Source: Planctomycetales bacterium | GTDB taxonomy: Bacteria; Planctomycetota; Planctomycetia; Isosphaerales; Isosphaeraceae | Length of the DNA: 39,048 nt | Assembly (NCBI GenBank): GCA_027449865.1 | Contig: DAIDKV010000080.1 | Location: forward strand, 1 to 39,048 | Direction: 5' to 3' | In this document: positions 2,150-26,012 of the stretch, piece by piece | Position numbering within the stretch: position 1 is the stretch's first letter | Layout: every line of letters starts with the position of its first letter | Position numbers and translations under genes: made by a program | The notes under the pieces: model-generated | What the model was told of the DNA's origin: nothing | The model's input: only the letters and a program-made list of their open reading frames with translations | Databases searched by the model: none

Positions 2150-3445
2150 TTAGACCTTCGGCTCCCAGCCCGGGGCGTACTCTCGGCTCCAGAACCGCAT
2201 CGCCTCGGGATCATCGAGGATGCGGCCGTCCTTCGAGTTGCAGCGGAGGGCCCGGCCGGTTCGGTGGGCGATGTTTCCCAGGTGGCAGAGCAGAGTGCTC
2301 CGATGGCCTTCCTCGATCTCACTGTTCGGCTTCGCCTCGCCCCTCGCCGCAGCGACGAAGTTCGCCAGATGGGTTGCGTCGCCGCCCTGGCCGGTCACCT
2401 TTTTCGTCGGCTTCCCCTTCAGGTCCTTGATCGTGTAGCCGCCACCGTCGATCTCCAGGGCGCCGTTTTCGCCGTAGAAGACCACATCGGCCCGCGAGCT
2501 TCCCGGTCGGGCTCCATTGCAGCTCTTGCCCTGCCAGGTGATCGTCTTTCGGCCGTCGAAGTCAAAGCTCACGACGTGCGTGTCGGGTGTCTCCTGGTCG
2601 TCCTCGAATCGGTATCGGCCGCCCGATGAGGTGACGTGGACCGGGTAATCGACGCCCAGGCCCCAGCGCGCGACGTCGATCATGTGGACGCCGTTGTTGC
2701 CGAGTTCGCCGTTGCCCCAGTTCCAGAACCAGTGCCAGTTGTAGTGCAGGATGTTGTCGCGATACGGCTGACGCGCCGCCGGCCCCTGCCAGAGTTCGTA
2801 ATCGAGCCAGGCGGGGACGGGGCCAGGCTTGCCGTGGCCGATCGAGCCCCGGTTGTTCGTGTAGAAGCATTCGGCGAAGTAGGGACGCCCGATCGCGCCG
2901 GAGCGGATCTGTTCGATCGCTTCCATCACCTTCGGCCAGCTTCTGCGCTGGTTGCCCATCTGGACAATCCGGTTGTGCTTCCGCGCCGCCTCGACGAGCA
3001 GTTCGCCCTCGCGCGGGTTGTGGCTGCACGGCTTCTCGACGTAGACATGCTTGCCGGCCGCACAGGCGAGGATCGCCGCGGGGGCGTGCCAGTGGTTGCA
3101 GGTCGCGATCACGACCGCGTCGACGGCCCTGTCGTCGAGAACCGTTCGGAGGTCGCCCACGGCCTTCGTCTTCGGCTTGCCGTCGGCCGCACGATGGGCG
3201 GCATCGGCGGCGAGGCCGGCTCGCCGGTTATCGACGTCGCAGACATAAGCGACCTGGACGCCGTTCATCGCGGCGAAGTTGCGGGTGTGCTGGGTCCCGC
3301 GTCCGCCGACGCCGATCACTCCGACGACGAGCGTCTCGCTCGGTTGCTTCGCGCCGGCCTCGACGGCAAGGGCCGCCGGCATCGCCAGGAACGGGGCGGC
3401 CGAGGCCGTCTGGAGGAACCGACGACGTCCCGAATCGTGATTCAT
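2150..3445 (-). CDS. Gfo/Idh/MocA family oxidoreductase, Tat-exported
   Basis: A 431-residue NAD(P)-dependent sugar dehydrogenase-type protein. The N-terminus has a twin-arginine signal (RRRFLQTASAAPFLAMPAAL), so it is probably exported folded. The Rossmann nucleotide-binding loop is VIGVGGRG near residue 43. The EKPCSHNP motif supplies the conserved Lys of the family, and the C-terminal Gfo/Idh domain follows with NWHWFWNWGNGELGNNGVHM. Planctomycetes carry many such exported paralogues; the substrate (a sugar or inositol derivative) cannot be read from sequence. The ATG at 3445 is preceded by a purine-rich AAAGGG. It lies 80 bp downstream of the GT39 gene on the same strand, so co-transcription is possible. 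Confidence 0.93.
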   Translation of the reverse strand: MNHDSGRRRFLQTASAAPFLAMPAALAVEAGAKQPSETLVVGVIGVGGRGTQHTRNFAAMNGVQVAYVCDVDNRRAGLAADAAHRAADGKPKTKAVGDLRTVLDDRAVDAVVIATCNHWHAPAAILACAAGKHVYVEKPCSHNPREGELLVEAARKHNRIVQMGNQRRSWPKVMEAIEQIRSGAIGRPYFAECFYTNNRGSIGHGKPGPVPAWLDYELWQGPAARQPYRDNILHYNWHWFWNWGNGELGNNGVHMIDVARWGLGVDYPVHVTSSGGRYRFEDDQETPDTHVVSFDFDGRKTITWQGKSCNGARPGSSRADVVFYGENGALEIDGGGYTIKDLKGKPTKKVTGQGGDATHLANFVAAARGEAKPNSEIEEGHRSTLLCHLGNIAHRTGRALRCNSKDGRILDDPEAMRFWSREYAPGWEPKV

Positions 3446-3525
3446 GGCTCGCCCTTTCGCGCCGAGGAGATTGCTGGATGGTCGTCCGCTTTCTCCGTCG
3501 AGGCTATCGGGCGCCCCACCGCCTG

Positions 3526-5331
3526 TCAACGGACCGGAGTCGAGGGCGGATTCGTTGGGGTTGGCGGCTTCGGTTGTCGTCGGGCGCCCGGGCGATTTTG
3601 TTCGTAACCGGCGACCCCGCGGAAGTCGCGACCGATCGCGATGTCCCAGGCCGCCACCGTCACGCCACGCTCCTTGATCTCGAACCGTTCGATCGGCTCG
3701 ATGCTTCGGACGACCTTCTTGTCTCGAAGGATCATCGCATAGTTCGGTGGCTGGTTCGCGTCCTCAACCACCAGCACGGTCCGGCCCAGAAAGGGGCCGG
3801 GATCGTGTCGGGGGTTGGGGTGCCAGAGGTCGTGCTGGTTGACCGGCTCCCGCGACATCCCGAAGTTCCAGGCCAGGCAATACGTCTCGGGATGCCCCTT
3901 CATGTAGAAGGAGAGCGTTGAGGCCAGTTGGTAGTAGGCCGTCACCACGAACGGGTCTTCACCGGCTGCCCGAAGCGATTCGAGCCGCTTCTCCACCTCG
4001 ACGGCCAGCTCCTCGTAGCCTCGCATTCGGGCCGTGGCGTCGTACACTCGCAAAGGCGCCGCGAATCGCTGGGATGGCCCGGGAACAAACCGGGCGATCG
4101 CCGGATAGAACCACTCGGTGTGGTGGATCATCGCGATCAGCCCGACCGCGATCCCCCACGAGATCACATAGGCCCGCTTCCGACGTCCGCCTTCCGCGAA
4201 GGCGAGATCCGCCCGCCGCCCGATCAGGACCACCAGCGCGGTGTAACCGGTTGCCATCCAGTTGGCCTCGCTCTCGCCCAGGAAGCTGGCCGAGAGGCAG
4301 GCGCACCAGGTGACGCCCCAGAGGGCGAGCAGGAAGACGGTTCCCTCGCGAGTCGCACCGTCGATCGTTCGATGCCGGACGTCGCGGAGGTTCTGAGCGA
4401 TGGCCGCGACGCCGGCGACCCACCAGAAGCCGCCGAGCACGGCGAACTCGCCGCCGAGGAAGCCGAGGACGGGCCCGAGCCCGCCCCAGACCGCCCGGCT
4501 CGCCAGCCCGACACGATCGGCCAGTTGAGTGGCGCCGACCCAGCCGTGATGGGCGTTCCAGGCGACGATGGGACCCAGCCCAAGACCGACGCAAAGGAGG
4601 GACATCGTCCAGAATCCCGGCCGCAAGAGCTCGCGTCGACGCTCGGGGATAAGCAGCAGGAACAACCCGACCGAGGCCGGCATCGCCAGGACCGAGTACT
4701 TCGCCAGCACTCCGAGCGATCCGATCACGCCGGAGATCGCCCAGGCTCTTCGGTCGTCGCCTCGGATGGCCCGGAAGGCCCAGACCGCCGACCAGACCCA
4801 CGAGCCGATGAGCGGCGAGTCGGCGGTGATGATCACACCGCCCACCGCGAAGAGCGGGATCGCCGGCAGGATCAGGACCGCGAAGAACGCCGAGCGTCGC
4901 GAGCCGGTGGTTTCCTCGGCGAGCCGGAAGAGACCCCAGGCGGTGAGCCCTCCGATCAGGACCGCCATGAAGCGAGCGGCGAACATCAACGAGCCGGTCA
5001 TCGCCTCGCTGAACGAGCCGAACAGCTCGACGCCGAGTCGGACCACCAGCGCGATCACGGGTCCGCGAGCGAAATAGGCCCAGTCGAGGCGTTGCGACCA
5101 GGCCCAGTACTCGGCCTCGTCGCCGCAGAGGTCCCAGTCGCAGCCGACGAGCAGGAAGAGAGTCTGGAGCGACATGACCGCCAGGATCGCGACGGCGGCC
5201 CATCGAGAGAGATGGTCATCCACCTGAGCTGGCCTGGACAGGGCCTCGGCGGTTAAGGACCGCCGTCCGGGTCGGACTCGCGCCCGGACTCGTTCCGCGA
5301 GACTGGACATCCGTGTGCATCCTCGTGCCAT
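3526..5331 (-). CDS. glycosyltransferase family 39 (ArnT/PMT-like) integral membrane protein
   Basis: About 601 residues with a dozen or so hydrophobic segments. The first luminal loop carries GDEAEYWAWSQRLDWAYFAR, matching the acidic DE motif of the GT39/GT83 (PMT_2) fold that uses polyprenyl-phosphate sugars to glycosylate lipids or proteins at the outer face of the membrane. GVIITADSPL and KYSVLAMP are further family motifs. A soluble tail of about 170 residues ends in a Pro-rich segment. The ATG at 5331 has GGGAGG ten bases upstream; an in-frame ATG at 5310 is an alternative. The acceptor (lipid A, protein or cell-wall glycan) is unknown. The reading frame continues further upstream, but that stretch lacks family features. 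Confidence 0.88.
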   Translation of the reverse strand: MARGCTRMSSLAERVRARVRPGRRSLTAEALSRPAQVDDHLSRWAAVAILAVMSLQTLFLLVGCDWDLCGDEAEYWAWSQRLDWAYFARGPVIALVVRLGVELFGSFSEAMTGSLMFAARFMAVLIGGLTAWGLFRLAEETTGSRRSAFFAVLILPAIPLFAVGGVIITADSPLIGSWVWSAVWAFRAIRGDDRRAWAISGVIGSLGVLAKYSVLAMPASVGLFLLLIPERRRELLRPGFWTMSLLCVGLGLGPIVAWNAHHGWVGATQLADRVGLASRAVWGGLGPVLGFLGGEFAVLGGFWWVAGVAAIAQNLRDVRHRTIDGATREGTVFLLALWGVTWCACLSASFLGESEANWMATGYTALVVLIGRRADLAFAEGGRRKRAYVISWGIAVGLIAMIHHTEWFYPAIARFVPGPSQRFAAPLRVYDATARMRGYEELAVEVEKRLESLRAAGEDPFVVTAYYQLASTLSFYMKGHPETYCLAWNFGMSREPVNQHDLWHPNPRHDPGPFLGRTVLVVEDANQPPNYAMILRDKKVVRSIEPIERFEIKERGVTVAAWDIAIGRDFRGVAGYEQNRPGARRQPKPPTPTNPPSTPVR

Positions 5332-6039
5332 CGACTGGCCGCCTCCCAACATCGGGCGCGGCGATCCGTCTCTGTTTTTATCGTCGATTCCGCCAGAAGC
5401 GTCCAGAGAATCCGGACGATCGGCGAGCCTGTCCCGGAAGACGGAAGTCGGTCCGGCTTTCCCGCCAAGCCTGGACCACGATTTGCGTGGATCACTGACG
5501 CTTCTCTTGCATTTCGCGCCCGGTTCATTATGCTCAGAGTTGGTGAAAGAATCCGATGGAAGATTCCGTATTCCAGATTCCAGATTCCATAAATGGAACG
5601 CCTTGCTACTATGAGACTTATGTCTATCTGGAATCACGAATCTGTCATCTTGAATCGATACTTTCACAGCCTCTCAGAAGAGGCCATGCCTGACGCACCG
5701 ATGTCGTGCGCCAGGGGTGCGAAACACTTTCTCGACAAACTTCCGAGTTCTCCAGGGCCCCATTGAAGCCCCGTCGCGCTCCGTTCGAGAGATCCTGCCG
5801 CTTCCGAGGGCGCCCATCAAAATCGAGGCCATTCGCCTGGACGAATGACCGGCTGAAGAGGTGCGATCGAGATCGATACGCACAAATCGGAAACTTCCGG
5901 ACCCAACCGGGGCTTGTAACGTCGTCGGTGGGACAAGGTCGGGTCGGGCTGCGCCCTGTCGTGGTGCTGGCCGTGTCAGTCGGTACGGTTGGCGAAGAGC
6001 GGCCGCGGCGGTTCGCGCCCCTCATGCGGAGGCGGCACG
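5332..6039. other. 708-bp divergent intergenic region with heptamer repeats and small hairpins
   Basis: This region separates the divergent GT39 and patatin genes. It holds a tandem heptamer run at 5564-5591, a 10-bp inverted repeat (5576-5585 against 5626-5635) and a 6-bp stem with a CAGA loop at 5669-5684. Short frames here have no ribosome-binding site or protein-like composition. I see no tRNA or recognisable ncRNA. Promoters for both genes presumably lie here, but I cannot place them. Confidence 0.6.
5564..5591. repeat. heptanucleotide tandem repeat (TTCCAGA-type, 4 units)
   Basis: Four consecutive 7-bp units read TTCCGTA, TTCCAGA, TTCCAGA, TTCCATA. The sequence is intergenic. A degenerate relative is at 14708-14735, and an unrelated heptamer array is at 20750-20777. 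Confidence 0.75.
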
Positions 6040-9000
6040 ATGGCGAACGGAGCGGAGAACCGAGATTTCGCGGATGTCCTTGACCGTGAACTGAGGCGCA
6101 TCCGATTTCGGCGTCGAAAGGTCTGGGAGATGGTGACCGGTCGGTCGTCCGCGGGCACCGACCCCTCGGGCGATGGCCGTGTGCGCGGAGGCGATCCGGT
6201 CCGAGACGGCGAGGCCGATCACGCCTCGTCGACGGCCGCGGAGACCGTCGACCCGTGCAAGGTCGCGCGACTTGATGCATTGAACGACCATCTGGTCGGT
6301 CTGGCGATCTCTGGAGGGGGGATCCGCAGCGCCACGTTCGCGCTTGGGGTGCTCCAGGGCCTGGCCGATCTGAAGCTGCTGAGCCGGTTCGACTACCTGT
6401 CGACCGTCTCGGGCGGCGGCTACATAGGCGGTTGGCTGGCGGCCTGGATCAAGCGGGAGGGGGACCCGCTGAGTGTCGAGCGGCAACTGTCGCCCAACCG
6501 GATCACTCAGGCCGAGCCCTCCCCGCCCGAGGGAGACGACGAGTCCGACCGTCGGCCACCGCTGCCGCTCCGCCGGATCGTGGACGAGGAGCCCGAGCCG
6601 ATCCACCACCTGAGGTCCTACAGTAATTACCTCACCCCCCGTCCCGGGCTATTGTCCGTTGACACCTGGACGGTCTTAACGATCTATATCCGAAACGGGC
6701 TGATCAATCAGCTCCTGCTCCTGCCCCTGACCATGATCGCCGTCCTGCTGGGCCGCCTGATCGTCTGGTTCTTCGCGATCGACACGCGGCTGCCGGCGCT
6801 CCGCGCGTCAGTGTTTTGGGTCTGCTCCAGCGCGCTGCTGCTAGCGTTTTTCTCGATCGGTCGGCACATCGCCTATTTGATTTCGCCGAGGCGCCGTCCG
6901 CCGGACGACGCCTCGAGGATCGCTCCCGACGGCTGGATGGTCGCGACGATGTCCCTGACGATCCTCACCCCCTTGACGTTGGCCGCGGTGCTGGCGTGCT
7001 GGTCGTACAGCATCGCGCCGACGGGGCCTCCTGGCCCGAGACCGTCGAGGATCGGGGGCGAGGATGCGTTCACGCTGAGCCTGCCCGACTCGCCGCCGTT
7101 CGTCGCCGAGCTTCAGCCGAATGCCCCGGCCTCGGTCTTCCGCTTCCTGGAGAGGCTGCCGGGCTTCGATGAAGACGCGTTCCCGATCTGGGCGCGTGGG
7201 GAATTCCTCTGGGTCTCGGCGATCGAGTTCATGGTGTGGTTCGGGCTGCTGACGCTGAGCGTCCACTTGCTGGGCTTCCTGATCTGGGCATTCATCGGGC
7301 GGGGCTCGCCCGCGACGACCGGTGTCGGCCGGCATCGGGTCAGCCGAAAGAAGCTCGCCGTCCTGATGGCGACCGCCGCCCTGACGGCCGGGGCCACCGG
7401 AGGCTTCCTGTTCTTCGTCTTTTGCTCGACGATCCTCTGGCCGCTGCACAACCAGCCGCACGCGATCGTCACCGTCGGGCCGTCGCTGGCACTGCTCGTC
7501 GTCACCGTCGCGACCTTCGTCGAGGTCTGGATGCTGGCGCACTGGCAGTCCGACGCCGTCCGCGAGTGGTGGGCGCGGGTCTGTAGCTGGATGATCATCA
7601 TCGCCGGCGGCTGGCTGGCATTCTTCGGTATCACCCTTTACGGCCCGATGCTCGTCCAGGTCTACATGGGCTCGAGTCTCAGTTCGGGGGTCGGTATGGG
7701 CTGGCTGCTGACGGCCCTCGGGGGGGCCTACGCCGGCCGCTCGCCGGAGGCCACCCGGCCCGGGGGCGACTGGAAGATCAAGGCGCTGATCGCCGTGGCG
7801 CCGACGGTGTTCCTCGCCGGGCTGATGGTGTTGGTCTCGCTCCTGGTCGACGCGATCGTCTTTGAGGGGCCGACGGCGCGACTCGCCCCGTTCAACCTGA
7901 AGCCAGGCGACCGCGCCGCGTCGGGCTCGTGGGTCTACTGGAACGGGGTGGAGACGACGAGGATCGACAAGATTGGATGGGGGATCCTCGGCTGCGCCGT
8001 GATGGTGACGCTGGCCTCGGTCCTGTCGAACATCAACCGATTCTCGCTGAACGCGATGTACGCCACCCGGCTGACCCGATGCTACCTGGGCGCCTCGCGT
8101 CGCAAGCGCGAGTGGCTGAGGCGGGGCGCGGGCTGGGGAAGCGGCGGCGGCGGCGCCCCGACGCGGGCCGTCGGTCCGTTGCGCTGGGAAGACCCCATCA
8201 CCGGCTTCGACGCCGACGACGACATCCCGCTGCACCGGATGCGGATCGGCCTGGCCGACTCCGCATCGGGCGAGCGGGAATACCTGGGGCCGCAGATGAT
8301 CATCAACACGGCGCTGAACCTCGTCGCCGGCCGCGAGCTGGCCTGGCAGGATCGCCGCGCCGAGTCGTTCATCTTCACGCCCGATTACTGCGGCAGCAAG
8401 GGGACCGGGTACGCCCCCACCGGCCCGGCGACCGAGTCGGAACTGACGCTCGGCCGCGCGATCTCGATCTCGGGGGCCGCGGTCGACTCGAACATCGGCG
8501 TCCACCAGAGCTCCGCCCTCATCGCCCTGATGACCGCCATCAATGCGCGGCTCGGCTGGTGGATGAGGAACCCGAACCCGGCCACCTGGGTCACCGGGGC
8601 GATCTCCGTCGGCGCCTCGGTCAGCCGCTGGGACGCCGGCAGCCCGTCGCTGTCCCTGCCCTTGCTCCTGGAGCTGTTCGGCCGGACCGACGAGCGCCGC
8701 GAGTGGATCCACCTCTCCGACGGCGGCCACTTCGAGAACCTGGCGGTCTACGAGCTGATCCGGCGCCGATGTCGCTACATCGTCTGCTGCGATGCCGGGA
8801 CCGACCCGGGGGCCTCCGACGACAACCTGGCGAACATGATCCGGCTGTGCCGGACCGATTTCGGCGTGCGGATCGACCTGGACACCTCGCAGTTCGCCCG
8901 CCATGGAGATGCGAAGGTCAGCCGATCGCACTGCGCTGTCGGCCGGATCCGCTACGACGACGTCGACGGCGGCGAGCTCCCCGGTCTGTTCGTCTACCTG

Positions 9001-20789: not shown

Positions 20790-22073
20790 ATGGAAACCGA
20801 CCTGCTACAGGAAGAAGAGAGCCGGCCAGGAGGGATTCCCCTCTACGTCTGGGTGATCGGGGCGGTGCTGATCGCCGTTCCGGTCGGGATGGCCTGGGGC
20901 GAGGGCGCCGACCGGCTGGAGATTCTGCCGAAGCTGATCCTCCGGGCGCTGACGGCCCTGGCCGCCCCCCTGGTTGTGCTCGCGATCCTCAGCGCGATCG
21001 TCACCAACGAGATCCGAGGGCGGCTCGGAGCCCTGATGATGGGCTTCTACCTGCTCAACACGATTGTGGCGATGGTCATCGGGCTGGCCCTGACCAACGC
21101 GATCCGTCCCGGCGTCGGGGCCTCGCTGAGCCAGGTGGCGTTGGGGCCGGCGCCGCCGTCGAAGTCGATGCAGGATCTCCTGGTCGACCTGATCCCGCGG
21201 AGCATCGGCGAGCCGTTTACCCAGAACCACCTGGCGCAGCTCGTGGTGCTGACCCTGGCGCTCGGCATCGGACTGGTGAAGATTCGAGACGCCCGCAAGA
21301 GCAAGGGCGACGCATCGTTTCACGTCGTCATCGACCTGCTGACGATCGGCTTCGAGCTGTTGATGAAGGTTTTGCTCTGGGTCGTGGCTCTCTCGCCACT
21401 GGCCGTCTTCGGGATCGTCGCGTCGAAGGTTGGGCAGGGAGAAGCGATGAAGGTGGCCGCCTCGCTGGCCTGGCTAATCGGAGTGGTCTCGGCCGGCCTG
21501 GCGCTCCAGGTCACCTGGTATCTCGTCCAGATGCTGGTGCTCGCGGGAATGAATCCGGTGCGGTTCCTGGCCGGCTCTCTCGACGTGATCGCCAACACCT
21601 TCAGCACGGCTAGCACGGCGGCGACGATCCCGATCACGCTACGGTCACTCTCGAAGCTTGGGGTTTCGAGGCGGTCGGGCCAGTTGACGGCCTGCATCGG
21701 GACAAACTTCAATAACGACGGAACCGCACTTTACCAGGCGACGGCCGTCCTCTTTCTCGCCCAGGCGATGGGCTATAACCTGGGCCTCGCCGATCAGGTC
21801 ATGATCGTGCTGACGACGTTGATAGCGAGCGTGGGGGCGGGCGGGATTCCCTCGGGAAGTTTTGTAACGCTTCCCCTGATTTTTGCGGCCGTCCACATGC
21901 CGGTGGACCGGATTCCGATCCTGTTGACCGTTGACTGGTTCCTCGACCGACTGCGGACGACCTCGAACGTGCTGGGCGACATGACGGTTGCGGTCCTGCT
22001 TGATCGGGTCTCGCCGCCCGTCGAGGAGAGTCTCGCCATCGAGGGAGCCTCGACGCCGGGGACGGTCGGCTGA
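20790..22073 (+). CDS. dicarboxylate/amino acid:cation symporter (DAACS/SDF family)
   Basis: 427 residues with about eight membrane spans and two re-entrant hairpins. Transport-core motifs are intact: the serine-rich hairpin STASTAATIPITL, the Na+/substrate motif GTNFNNDGTALYQ, the second hairpin SVGAGGIPSGSFV, and DWFLDRLRTTSNVLGD with its conserved Asp and Arg. These transporters import dicarboxylates, glutamate/aspartate or neutral amino acids with Na+ or H+. Which substrate is unclear. The leader carries the CAACGGA repeat. Confidence 0.93.
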   Translation: METDLLQEEESRPGGIPLYVWVIGAVLIAVPVGMAWGEGADRLEILPKLILRALTALAAPLVVLAILSAIVTNEIRGRLGALMMGFYLLNTIVAMVIGLALTNAIRPGVGASLSQVALGPAPPSKSMQDLLVDLIPRSIGEPFTQNHLAQLVVLTLALGIGLVKIRDARKSKGDASFHVVIDLLTIGFELLMKVLLWVVALSPLAVFGIVASKVGQGEAMKVAASLAWLIGVVSAGLALQVTWYLVQMLVLAGMNPVRFLAGSLDVIANTFSTASTAATIPITLRSLSKLGVSRRSGQLTACIGTNFNNDGTALYQATAVLFLAQAMGYNLGLADQVMIVLTTLIASVGAGGIPSGSFVTLPLIFAAVHMPVDRIPILLTVDWFLDRLRTTSNVLGDMTVAVLLDRVSPPVEESLAIEGASTPGTVG

Positions 22074-22090
22074 GCTGACCTGAGCTGGTC

Positions 22091-22121
22091 TGGACAGGAG
22101 TGTCGCGGCGCAAACTATACT
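22091..22121 (+). promoter_or_regulatory. possible sigma70-type promoter for the first WecB/TagA gene
   Basis: TGGACA (22091-22096) and TATACT (22116-22121) with a 19-bp spacer lie 85 bp before the ATG. The spacer is longer than ideal. A GC-rich direct repeat (GGCGCCGGCCC twice) follows in the leader. Confidence 0.4.
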
Positions 22122-22205
22122 GGGGCATCCTGGTCGGGGGGACGTCGGCGCCGGCCCGGCGCCGGCCCGGCCTGGGCTAAGAAGCGACGGTGAGGTGGGC
22201 CGCGG

Positions 22206-22976
22206 ATGTCGGATGTGGCGAAGGCAGTGATGGTCTGGGGGATCCCACTTGTCCCCTGGACGCTTCAGGAGACGGTGGCCGCCGTCTCGGATCGCATTCG
22301 GTCGCGGGAGCCGGGTTTTTTTATCACGGCGAATGTCCACTACGCGATGCTTTCCGAGCAGCATCCCGACCTGCGTGAGGTGAATGAGCGAGCGGCCTTT
22401 ATTCTGGCGGATGGCAAGCCGCTGGTCTGGGCCTCGCGGTTGGCAGGGTCTCCGATCCCGGAGCGAGTGGCGGGGAGCGACCTGATCTTCCGGCTTTGCG
22501 AGGAGGCGGCTCGCGAGCAGTTCGGGGTCTACCTGCTCGGCGGTGGTGAGGGAGTGGCGGAGAAGGCGGCGGAACGCCTGGTGGCGCGTTACCCGGGTCT
22601 GCGGATCGTCGGCACCGCGTGTCCGCCGTTCGGAGAGAGAACTCCCGAGCAGGAAGCCGCGATCGTCGCCGCCGTCCGCGCGGCGGCCCCGGATCTGCTG
22701 ATCACGGCCTTCACGATGCCGAGAGGCGAGCGATGGATCGCGGCGCATCTCGAAGCACTGAAAGTCCCGGTCGTGGTGAACCTCGGTGCCTCGCTCGATT
22801 TCGCCGCGGGCCGCGTCCGCCGTGCCCCGCGCTGGATGCAGAAATCCGGCCTGGAATGGGTCTTCCGAATGGCCCAGGAGCCCCGCCGACTCGCCGGCCG
22901 ATACGCCCGCAACGCCTGGTTCGTGGCGAGAAAGTTGCTTTTCTGTTTGACGTTTTCTGTGTTATGTGTTCAATAG
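22206..22976 (+). CDS. WecB/TagA/CpsF family glycosyltransferase (GT26), copy 1
   Basis: 256 residues. Motifs of the family: [62 protein letters not shown], and the C-terminal [23 protein letters not shown]. These enzymes transfer N-acetylmannosamine-type sugars onto lipid-linked GlcNAc during surface polysaccharide or teichoic-type glycan synthesis at the membrane. Where a typical member has AxGxPKGE, this copy has AFTMPRGE. The last 14 residues come from non-homologous AT-rich sequence after the duplication breakpoint, so the native tail is lost. Paralogue of 23378-24163. Confidence 0.92.
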   Translation: MSDVAKAVMVWGIPLVPWTLQETVAAVSDRIRSREPGFFITANVHYAMLSEQHPDLREVNERAAFILADGKPLVWASRLAGSPIPERVAGSDLIFRLCEEAAREQFGVYLLGGGEGVAEKAAERLVARYPGLRIVGTACPPFGERTPEQEAAIVAAVRAAAPDLLITAFTMPRGERWIAAHLEALKVPVVVNLGASLDFAAGRVRRAPRWMQKSGLEWVFRMAQEPRRLAGRYARNAWFVARKLLFCLTFSVLCVQ

Positions 22977-23030
22977 ATGTATTGTTTTCTTGCGTCGGGT
23001 TGATGGCTCGCTATCCTGAAAACGGAAGTC

Positions 23031-23230
23031 GAACGATCTGGCGCAATTCGACGCGGAGGAAGCTCGGGCGCCGAGGGTGCCGCCCTTGTCGAGCTTCACG
23101 CCGTCGCCGAGAGGACGGAAGGCGCGTGCGAACCGCCGGTTGAGGCGGCCGTTATGGCCGTCGACATCCGTCGCCGACGTGAAAGGCGATGATCTCCAGG
23201 GAGAGGTTCTGGCCGCGGCGGTAGTCCGGA
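23031..23230 (-). pseudogene. decayed remnant of a serine acetyltransferase gene (epsC copy 1)
   Basis: Two blocks match the intact epsC downstream. 23031-23110 aligns with about 24399-24478, including the shared AGCTTCACGCCGTCGCCGA. 23111-23230 aligns with about 24847-24960, including GGAAGGCGCGTGCGA and GAGGTTCTGG. The roughly 370 bp between these blocks in the intact gene, and its 3' end, are missing, and frames are broken. It occupies the same place relative to copy 1 of the glycosyltransferase gene as epsC does to copy 2, so a two-gene unit was duplicated and one epsC decayed. Confidence 0.85.
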
Positions 23231-23377
23231 GGGGAGAGCCGGTTGCGCTCCTGCGCGGCCGCGTTTCGACGCCACGGTGGTGGTAGGGCCGATCGGGTCG
23301 GCGTTTTGGACAGTCTGCCGCAAGAGACCTAGGATCCTATCGGGCGGTAAATTGAACAGCCGGTAGGGGAATGATTT
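23231..23377 (+). promoter_or_regulatory. leader of the second WecB/TagA gene, with candidate promoter
   Basis: TTGGAC (23306-23311) and TAGGAT (23330-23335) with an 18-bp spacer lie 43 bp before the ATG at 23378. A GGGGA seven bases before the ATG is the ribosome-binding site. Nothing else is recognisable in this stretch. Confidence 0.45.
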
Positions 23378-24163
23378 ATGTTACAGACCAAGGAGCCGGA
23401 ATCGTCGGTACGGTGTCGGGTCTGGATCTGGGGGGTGCCGTACGCGCCATTCACGGTTGCGGAGGCGGTCGCGGCGGTTTCCGAACTGATCCGGGCCGGG
23501 CGTCCGTCGTTCTTCATCACGGCGCCGACCCACTATGCGATGCTGACCGAGCAATGCGCTGACCTCCGAGAGATCAACGAGCGGGCGGCATTCATCGTGG
23601 CGGATGGCAAGCCGCTGGTCTGGGCCTCGCGGATGCAGGGTGAGCCGCTGCCCGAGCGTGTCGCCGGCAGCGACCTGATCTTCCACCTCTGCGAGGAGGC
23701 GGCGAACAAGGGGTATCGCGTTTTCCTGCTCGGCGGCGCCGAGGGGGTCGCCGACGAGGCGGCACGCCGGCTCGTCGAACGTTACCCCGGCCTCAAGATC
23801 GTCGGGACCGAGTGCCCGCCGTTCCGCCCGACGACTCCCGAGGAAGAAGAGGCGATGCTCGACCGGATCCGGAACGCCGAGCCGGATTTGCTGTTCGTTG
23901 CCTTTGGGCAGCCGAAGGGCGAGCGGTGGATCCTCCGCCATTACGAGGCGCTCGGCGTTCCGGTGAGCGTGCAGGTCGGTGCCTCGCTCGACTTCGCCGC
24001 GGGCCGCGTCCACCGCGCCCCGCGCTGGATGCAGAAATCGGGCCTGGAATGGGTCTTCCGGATGGCCCAGGAGCCCCGCCGGCTCGCCGGCCGATACGCC
24101 CGCAACGCCTGGTTCGTGGCGCGGCGGATGGCTTTCGGCGGGGGTCGGCCGGCTGATGATTAG
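23378..24163 (+). CDS. WecB/TagA/CpsF family glycosyltransferase (GT26), copy 2
   Basis: 261 residues with the same motif order as copy 1 ([57 protein letters not shown]). It keeps the usual FGQPKGE motif and a normal tail, so this is the better candidate for the functional enzyme. It likely adds a ManNAc-type sugar to a lipid-linked GlcNAc in exopolysaccharide or wall-glycan synthesis. 144 bp near the 3' end are almost identical to copy 1. Its TAG stop overlaps the stop of the convergent epsC gene. Confidence 0.93.
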
Positions 24164-25140
24164 ATCTGATAATTGATCCGGCGAGCATAATCGATATCGG
24201 CGAGGCTGTCGCCAGCCTCTCGGAAGCGGAGGCGTGGGTCCTCGATGGTGACCTGGGTGTAAGGGGCGACGCTTCGGGTAATCCAGGCCGAGGAGCCGAT
24301 CACTGAGTGGTGGCCGATGACGGTCTTGCCGCCGAGGATCGTGGCATTGGCATAAATGACGACCTCGTCCTCGATCGTCGGGTGGCGCTGGACGTCGCGG
24401 ACGATCTGCCCAAATTCGTCGCGGGGGAAGCTCAGGGCGCCGAGGGTGACGCCCTGGTAGAGCTTCACGCCGTCGCCGATCCGGGTAGTCTCGCCGATGA
24501 CGACGCCGGTACCGTGATCGATGAAGAAGCGTCGGCCGATCCGGGCGCCGGGGTGGATGTCGATGCCGGTTTTGCCCTTGGCGTACTCGGTCATGATTCG
24601 GGGGATGAGCGGGACGCCCAGGCGGTGCAGTTCGTGGGCGAGGCGGTAGACGGTCACGGCGGCGACGCCGGGGTAGCAGAAGACGATTTCGCCGAGGCTT
24701 TTGGCGGCCGGGTCACCGTCGTAGGCGGCCTGGACGTCCTCGGCGAGGGTATGGCGGAGGGCGGGGAGGGTTTCGAGGAAACGGAGGGTGATTCCGGCGG
24801 CACGACTCTCGTGATCGGTGGCGTCGTCGCGATCGAGGCAATCGTGGCGGAAGGCGCGTGCGATTTGCTGGGTGAGGCGGCCGTGAAGGCCGTCCACCAG
24901 GTCGCCGACGTGGAAGGCGACGTTCCCCAGGTGGAGGTTCTGGCGGCGGCCATAGCCTGGGTAGAGGATCTCGCGAAGGTCGGCGAGGATGTCGACGACC
25001 TCCCGGTAGCTGGGGAGTGGGGAATGGCCCAGGTGGTGGATCCGCCCGCATTCCTCGTAGGTCGCGACGATCCGGGCGGTGATCGCCGGGATCGCCTCCG
25101 CGTGGGAGTTCCTGGTCTGAGAGTCGGAATCCGTCGACAT
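24160..25140 (-). CDS. epsC: serine O-acetyltransferase, EpsC type
   Basis: 326 residues. It acetylates serine with acetyl-CoA, the first step of cysteine synthesis. The C-terminal left-handed beta-helix is read from the hexapeptide stretch [21 protein letters not shown] through [23 protein letters not shown] and [19 protein letters not shown]. The helical N-terminus ([20 protein letters not shown]) and REILYPGY are typical of EpsC-type enzymes rather than E. coli CysE. The ATG at 25140 has GAGG four bases upstream. kdsB ends 92 bp upstream on the same strand. It converges with copy 2 of the glycosyltransferase (4-bp overlap). Confidence 0.94.
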
Positions 25141-25232
25141 CTGGCCTCGCCTCGTCCGGCCCGGCCCGGATGGGGACGGGGATGGTGGGAACCTCGACGA
25201 CACATCATTTGACCCGGCGGCCGGGGCGGAAT

Positions 25233-26012
25233 TCAAGTCGGGGGCGTCGATGCGGGCCCGGCGTGAGCCGCCCGCCATCGCTCGACGAAGTGTCGGTAGT
25301 CTTCGGGTGTGTCGATGCCGACGCTTGCCTCCTCGACGATCCCAACGGCGATCGGGAATCCGGCGTCGAGAACGCGGAGTTGTTCGAGCTTCTCGGCGGC
25401 CTCGAGCGGGGAGGGAGGGAGTTCGGCGATGGCGAGGAGGAAGTCGCGGCGGTAGGCGTAGAGGCCGAGGTGAAGGTGGGCGACAGGAGGCGTGGCGGTC
25501 GCGGGATCGGGGAGGCCGTCGCGGTGGCAGGGGATTGGGCTCCGCGAGAAGTAGAGGGCCCGGCCGCGCGTCGAGCACACGACCTTCACGCAGGCGGGGT
25601 TTCGGTAGGTCGCCTCGTCGCGAATCGGGGTGGCGAGCGTGGCCATGGGGGCCTCGGGGTCGTTTTCGAGGAGTTCGACAACGCGGTCGAGAGCCTCGCC
25701 GGAGACCTCGGGCTCATCTCCCTGGAGGTTGACGATGATCCGGGCGGTGGGGATCGATCGGGCGACCTCGGCGACGCGGTCGGTGCCGGAAGGATGGTCG
25801 GCGCGAGTCATTGCGAACTCGCCGCCGGCCTGCGCGACCGCATCGGCGATGCGGGGATCATCGGTCGCGACGATGATCCGGCCGATGGATCGCGCGCGTC
25901 GTGCCGCATCGAGGACGTGCGCGATCAAAGGCCGCCCGGTGTCGGATAACAGGGGTTTGCCGGGGAGTCGGGTCGAAGCGAAGCGGGCCGGGATCACCCC
26001 GACGATTTCCAT
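25233..26012 (-). CDS. kdsB: 3-deoxy-manno-octulosonate cytidylyltransferase (CMP-KDO synthetase)
   Basis: 259 residues, normal length. It activates KDO with CTP for lipopolysaccharide core synthesis, in the cytosol. Motifs: [16 protein letters not shown] (nucleotide-binding), [36 protein letters not shown] and the C-terminal GIDTPEDY. The start at 26012 has GGGA four bases upstream and begins right at the conserved [11 protein letters not shown]. Its presence supports KDO-containing LPS in the organism. Confidence 0.96.

Follow-up and report, generated by a model that had tools for sequence, protein, structure and literature searches.

A dead epsC fragment between two GT26 glycosyltransferase genes of a planctomycete, and the mosaic appearance of the glycosyltransferase beside it

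Two related glycosyltransferase genes stand in tandem in the analyzed DNA, and the sequence between them resembles pieces of the serine acetyltransferase gene that follows the second of them. This arrangement raises the question of whether a second epsC gene once stood there and, if so, which segment was copied together with it. The window, i.e., the whole analyzed stretch of 39,048 nt (contig DAIDKV010000080.1), in which all coordinates are given here, belongs to a draft assembly of 8.48 Mb in 278 contigs, herein referred to as G000. Together with four further genomes (G001-G004) it forms the genus sample of five, every one a draft assembly in many contigs. Family searches covered 45 genomes, and the order-level search was made in the same 45.

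The genes of this locus are arranged as follows: an SDF-type symporter (20790-22073, plus strand), the first glycosyltransferase, GT1 (22206-22976, plus strand), the epsC remnant, the second glycosyltransferase, GT2 (23378-24163, plus strand), the intact epsC (conserved part 24160-25101, minus strand), and a KdsB-type cytidylyltransferase beyond epsC, also on the minus strand. Both glycosyltransferases belong to the WecG/TagA/CpsF family (GT26; listed as WecB/TagA/CpsF), with scores of 209.2 bits for GT1 and 221.6 bits for GT2 (Pfam: PF03808, cut-off 27.4) and of 136 and 152.8, respectively, for TIGR00696 (cut-off 69). Arg228 of GT1 aligns with position 221 of the TagA chain, the catalytic Arg221, and GT2 carries the same EPRRLAGRY stretch. 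The intact epsC, a gene of the epsC/cysE type, is assigned by profile search to the EpsC-type serine O-acetyltransferases (NCBIfam equivalog NF041874, 152.1 bits, cut-off 150), its score for TIGR01172 cysE (161.8) being under the cut-off of 210.65. The epsC reading frame stays open further upstream than 25101, and the gene is possibly longer. A match to epsC is present in 44 of the 45 family genomes.

The remnant consists of two blocks on the minus strand, antisense to GT1. Block A (23030-23110, epsC codons ~208-235) matches epsC at 24398-24479 with 88% identity (BLAST, 100 bits, E 1e-23). Block B (23116-23229, epsC codons ~48-85) was matched by BLAST from 23116 to 23219, corresponding to epsC 24848-24950, with 82% identity (99.6 bits, E 4e-23), and the match can be extended without gaps to 23229/24960. 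The blocks are collinear with epsC, and their strand relative to the glycosyltransferase is the same as that of the intact gene, so the two ordered and oriented epsC blocks of the original prediction were confirmed. The middle and the 3' end had also been described as deleted. Both losses were found, although the description is incomplete, as the first ~47 codons are missing too. The internal deletion (junction at 23111-23115) has removed epsC 24481-24843, about 363 nt or codons ~87-207, and the C-terminal end is missing after codon ~235 in G000 and ~246 in G002. The remnant is thus a clear homologue of a functional gene of the same genome that, with these deletions and its core gone, is unable to encode a protein. 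The region 22937-23377, compared with the whole G000 genome, matched only itself and the two epsC blocks, and no further copies of the remnant or of the adjoining spacer were found.

The order SDF-GT1-remnant-GT2 was found in three of the five genus genomes (G000, G002, and G003). The other two, G001 and G004, have the order SDF-GT-epsC-kdsB, in which only one glycosyltransferase is present and the remnant is absent. Thus, the comparison of relatives for one or two units gave two of the four other genomes with the remnant and two glycosyltransferases and two without. GT2 corresponds in position to the single glycosyltransferase that G001 and G004 carry at their SDF-epsC locus. The remnants of G002 and G003 are longer on the block A side, reaching epsC 24364-24366 with 92-93% identity, and their block B is about 70 nt shorter, with the loss at GGCGGCC repeats. 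In all three genomes the two blocks are spaced identically where the internal deletion occurred, and by our reading of the alignment G000 and G003 have different bases at four of the five junction positions. The joint of the remnant with the GT2 upstream region (23230-23377, with a promoter-like site at 23307-23335; 82-85% conserved in G002 and G003) is shared among the genomes. The 45 family genomes yielded neither a donor nor an unstacked parent, and none was found to retain an intact second copy of epsC or to have the GT1 type alone at this locus, so that the intermediate is missing.

On the other side of the remnant lies an AT-rich spacer amid a GC-rich region (22936-23029), at the place where the 3' end of epsC and the glycosyltransferase tail would be expected; G002 and G003 have a divergent counterpart. 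The stop codon of GT1 lies within this spacer, and the last residues of GT1, where the reading frame enters it, differ from those of G002 and G003.

Intact epsC genes of G000 and G003 differ at 4, 1, and 40 sites in codon positions 1, 2, and 3, respectively (264 sites each). Between the G000 remnant and the epsC of the same genome, the corresponding differences are 8/60, 10/61, and 5/61. For positions 1 and 2 taken together vs. position 3, the counts are 18/121 vs. 5/61 in the remnant-epsC comparison and 5/528 vs. 40/264 between the two intact genes (Fisher p 5e-8). The differences of the remnant do not fall mainly at third codon positions; therefore, the gene is dead and has evolved free of coding constraint. 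What remains is a fragment of a second epsC copy whose origin lies in the epsC of this sublineage; of its 182 compared nucleotides, 23 differ from epsC of G000, and 51, 49, and 40 differ from epsC of G001, G004, and G018, respectively. Both glycosyltransferases are under purifying selection, with dN/dS of 0.06-0.14 for GT1 and 0.18-0.28 for GT2, GT1 being the slower one today. The view that the extra epsC was lost and both glycosyltransferases were kept is therefore upheld. The two were probably retained since their divergent catalytic parts would do different jobs.

Traces of more recent contact between the remnant and the live gene may also be present. Three block B states of the G000 remnant (24874, 24925, and 24934) are shared with G000 epsC, in which they look derived; the state at a further position, 24895, depends on gap placement. 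Two other G000-specific epsC states, at 24409 and 24412, are absent from the remnant. Third-position differences of each remnant from its own epsC are few (5/61, 7/48, and 3/52 for the set G000, G002, and G003). In a tree of remnants and epsC genes, made from a short alignment, the remnants group together with support of 56/97, and the AU test retained both the G000 remnant with G000 epsC (p 0.42) and the three epsC genes held together (p 0.23). These data hint that sequence passed between the remnant and epsC once the species had separated, or that the decay started at about the time of the split. The differing junction bases and shared derived states could likewise stem from a later exchange involving epsC or from independent decay in the two lineages.

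The relation between GT1 and GT2 is not uniform along the gene. In the first 193-196 codons, the two genes have 67-68% DNA identity and dS of 0.77-1.0, vs. 89-95% identity and dS of 0.22-0.40 in the next 49 codons (22785-22931 in GT1, 95% nucleotide identity in G000 and 89-90% in G002 and G003). The latter dS values are in the range found when orthologues of G000 are compared with those of G002 and G003 (0.23-0.40). Fourfold-degenerate sites differ more often in the first part than in the last one in all three genomes: 42/81 vs. 4/31 in G000 (Fisher p 2e-4), 35/82 vs. 6/30 in G002 (p 0.03), and 39/82 vs. 5/29 in G003 (p 0.004). Codons 1-193 of GT1 are of an older paralogue type (FTMPxGERW), and codons 194-242 are GT2-like. 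In trees of the N part, GT1 groups with a paralogue from G001 (G001b, contig C504) and one from G018, with support of 87/92 for protein and 98/99 for DNA. GT2 groups with the single locus glycosyltransferase of G001 and G004 in the protein tree (81/85); the DNA tree does not show this grouping and does not place the locus genes of G001 and G004. In the order-level search with the 5' part of GT1, the best non-orthologous match was the same G001 C504 gene (68%). The G018 paralogue sits in a locus of exopolysaccharide type, according to our reading of its ORFs. Fully partitioned DNA sites agree with a mosaic: in the N part, 13 sites join GT1 to G001b/G018 vs. 4 joining it to GT2, and the corresponding C-part counts are 0 and 5 (N vs. 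C, Fisher p 0.005); the protein patterns of the N part are 4 vs. 0. For the C part, AU rejection of the alternative was marginal (p 0.043). Judged by these comparisons, GT1 looks like a mosaic, with a 5' part from an older paralogue line and a tail copied from GT2.

Just upstream of the G001 C504 paralogue (3274-4072), repeated CCCCTCGGCGTTCC-like units and an ORF that by eye is transposase-like were seen; these elements are a possible route of movement.

Only the last 49 codons of GT1 and the epsC remnant fall in the young age class, and hence the copied piece would be the GT2 tail with epsC. Recombination in the ancestor of the three species would have placed this piece behind a divergent glycosyltransferase 5' part, and the second epsC, perhaps truncated from the start, would then have decayed through deletions. 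We favor this explanation with some reserve. The event was most likely a one-sided recombination, with one homologous flank and the other end joined without homology, that stacked two variants of an SDF-GT-epsC arrangement. The next possibility would be a tandem duplication in which the upstream glycosyltransferase was later overwritten in its 5' part by the older paralogue, and the sequence alone gives no decision between these two. More tentatively, the glycosyltransferase between SDF and epsC may be an exchangeable core, in which promoter and catalytic part are swapped and the homology arm is provided by the membrane-binding tail together with epsC. A one-sided exchange would then have stacked two variants, and the remnant would be a fossil homology arm that may still exchange with the live epsC.

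The original prediction held that glycosyltransferase and epsC were duplicated as a unit. The part of this claim that stands is the second epsC copy once located downstream of GT1; the close match of GT1 to GT2 covers only the 49-codon tract, with the divergent part upstream of it grouping elsewhere. A duplication of the whole unit implies equal divergence of both genes, and the dS of the N part (0.77-1.0) was found next to a young tail and a young remnant. The claim could be kept by assuming a tandem duplication of the complete pair, loss of the upstream epsC, fast divergence of the GT1 5' part, and gene conversion that kept the tails alike, a combination we regard as rather unlikely. The tandem layout is consistent with it, AU tests of the N part did not reject GT1 and GT2 as one clade (p 0.0905 for protein and 0.067 for DNA), and in nucleotides the GT1 N part is about equally near GT2 (68.5-70.5%) and G001b (69.9-70.3%). 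Against it stand the site patterns of the N part and the proportion of third-position differences there, 0.43-0.49, compared with the few between remnants and epsC (Fisher p 1e-9 to 2e-4). Fast divergence also fits poorly with GT1 being the slower of the two genes now, and the upstream regions of GT1 and GT2 show no similarity at E 0.01, so a shared promoter is not supported. Duplication of the whole glycosyltransferase with epsC is thus disfavored by these sequence comparisons and is probably wrong.

Two further explanations concern the remnant itself. A GT1-side transcript could be antisense to the epsC mRNA over about 80 + 110 nt and regulate epsC; the orientation fits, and so does the recurrence of three G000-specific epsC states in the G000 remnant. 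Such a function is nevertheless highly improbable, given the free drift at first and second codon positions (18/121), the epsC-specific states at 24409 and 24412 that the remnant has not followed, the loss of about 70 nt of block B in G002 and G003, and the Rfam search of 22900-23400, which gave no structured-RNA match. The probability is negligible that the assembly is faulty here or that the similarity is a chance effect of GC-rich DNA. All five genus genomes are drafts in many contigs, which would allow for faulty assembly, but the identical layout occurs on contigs of two further genomes (G002 and G003). As a control for chance, up to 300 random window segments of the same size, those starting in 22,001-25,599 being skipped, were compared with epsC and gave local scores with a mean of 25.6, a standard deviation of 3.3, and a maximum of 37. 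The best remnant block scored 113, and together with E values of about 1e-23 per block this control rules out chance similarity; the chance-level match that would have undone the original prediction was not seen.

Remnants of bacterial pseudogenes after duplication ordinarily decay via successive deletions and lose their codon-position bias, and the epsC remnant is like them in both respects. It is unlike them in its mosaic-looking neighbor GT1, which suggests that the copied segment was not a whole unit. General literature searches on pseudogenes, gene conversion, and duplication showed no close precedent among the papers listed, and a search joining planctomycetes, Isosphaeraceae, exopolysaccharide, and glycosyltransferase found no papers. 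The case illustrates how a short decayed piece of a gene can delimit a past recombination event and expose an intact neighbor as a mosaic. The case otherwise represents ordinary genome decay, of low general interest.

A partial parallel is offered by the type VI secretion (T6SS) clusters of Vibrio cholerae, for which orphan immunity genes, module stacking, and a putative process akin to homology-facilitated illegitimate recombination are described (PMC5361080). As in those arrays, a new variant would have been anchored here through flank homology, with left-over pieces adjoining. The left-over piece here is a dead gene of housekeeping type, unlike the kept immunity gene; only one event is seen, and its mechanism is inferred, as it is putative in the V. 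cholerae account too. For TagA, the last 49 residues, after Gly195, are described as an appendage that the enzyme requires to bind the membrane and to be active and that supplies Arg221 (PMC6493773). GT1 and GT2 are members of the same family by sequence, and their common tail, which maps to TagA residues ~187-235 (PDB 7mpk, 5wb4), covers this C-terminal catalytic and membrane appendage. Their host, a planctomycete, is not a maker of wall teichoic acid, and the likeness is one of sequence. The arrangement suggests that in the polysaccharide genes of these planctomycetes the catalytic part of a GT26 enzyme can be replaced and the membrane-binding tail retained.

Two of the related loci show peculiarities of their own. 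In G003, an Acyl_transf_3 gene (Pfam: PF01757; contig C278, 6259-7131, minus strand) that runs off the contig occupies the place after GT2 where epsC would be expected, and epsC was found at the edge of another contig, cut at codon 264; the arrangement after GT2 is either an insertion or a mis-join. In the single locus glycosyltransferase of G001 (contig C119, about 5320-6060, minus strand), an in-frame TGA takes the place of the Trp codon in the GLEW motif, and the gene may be inactive there.
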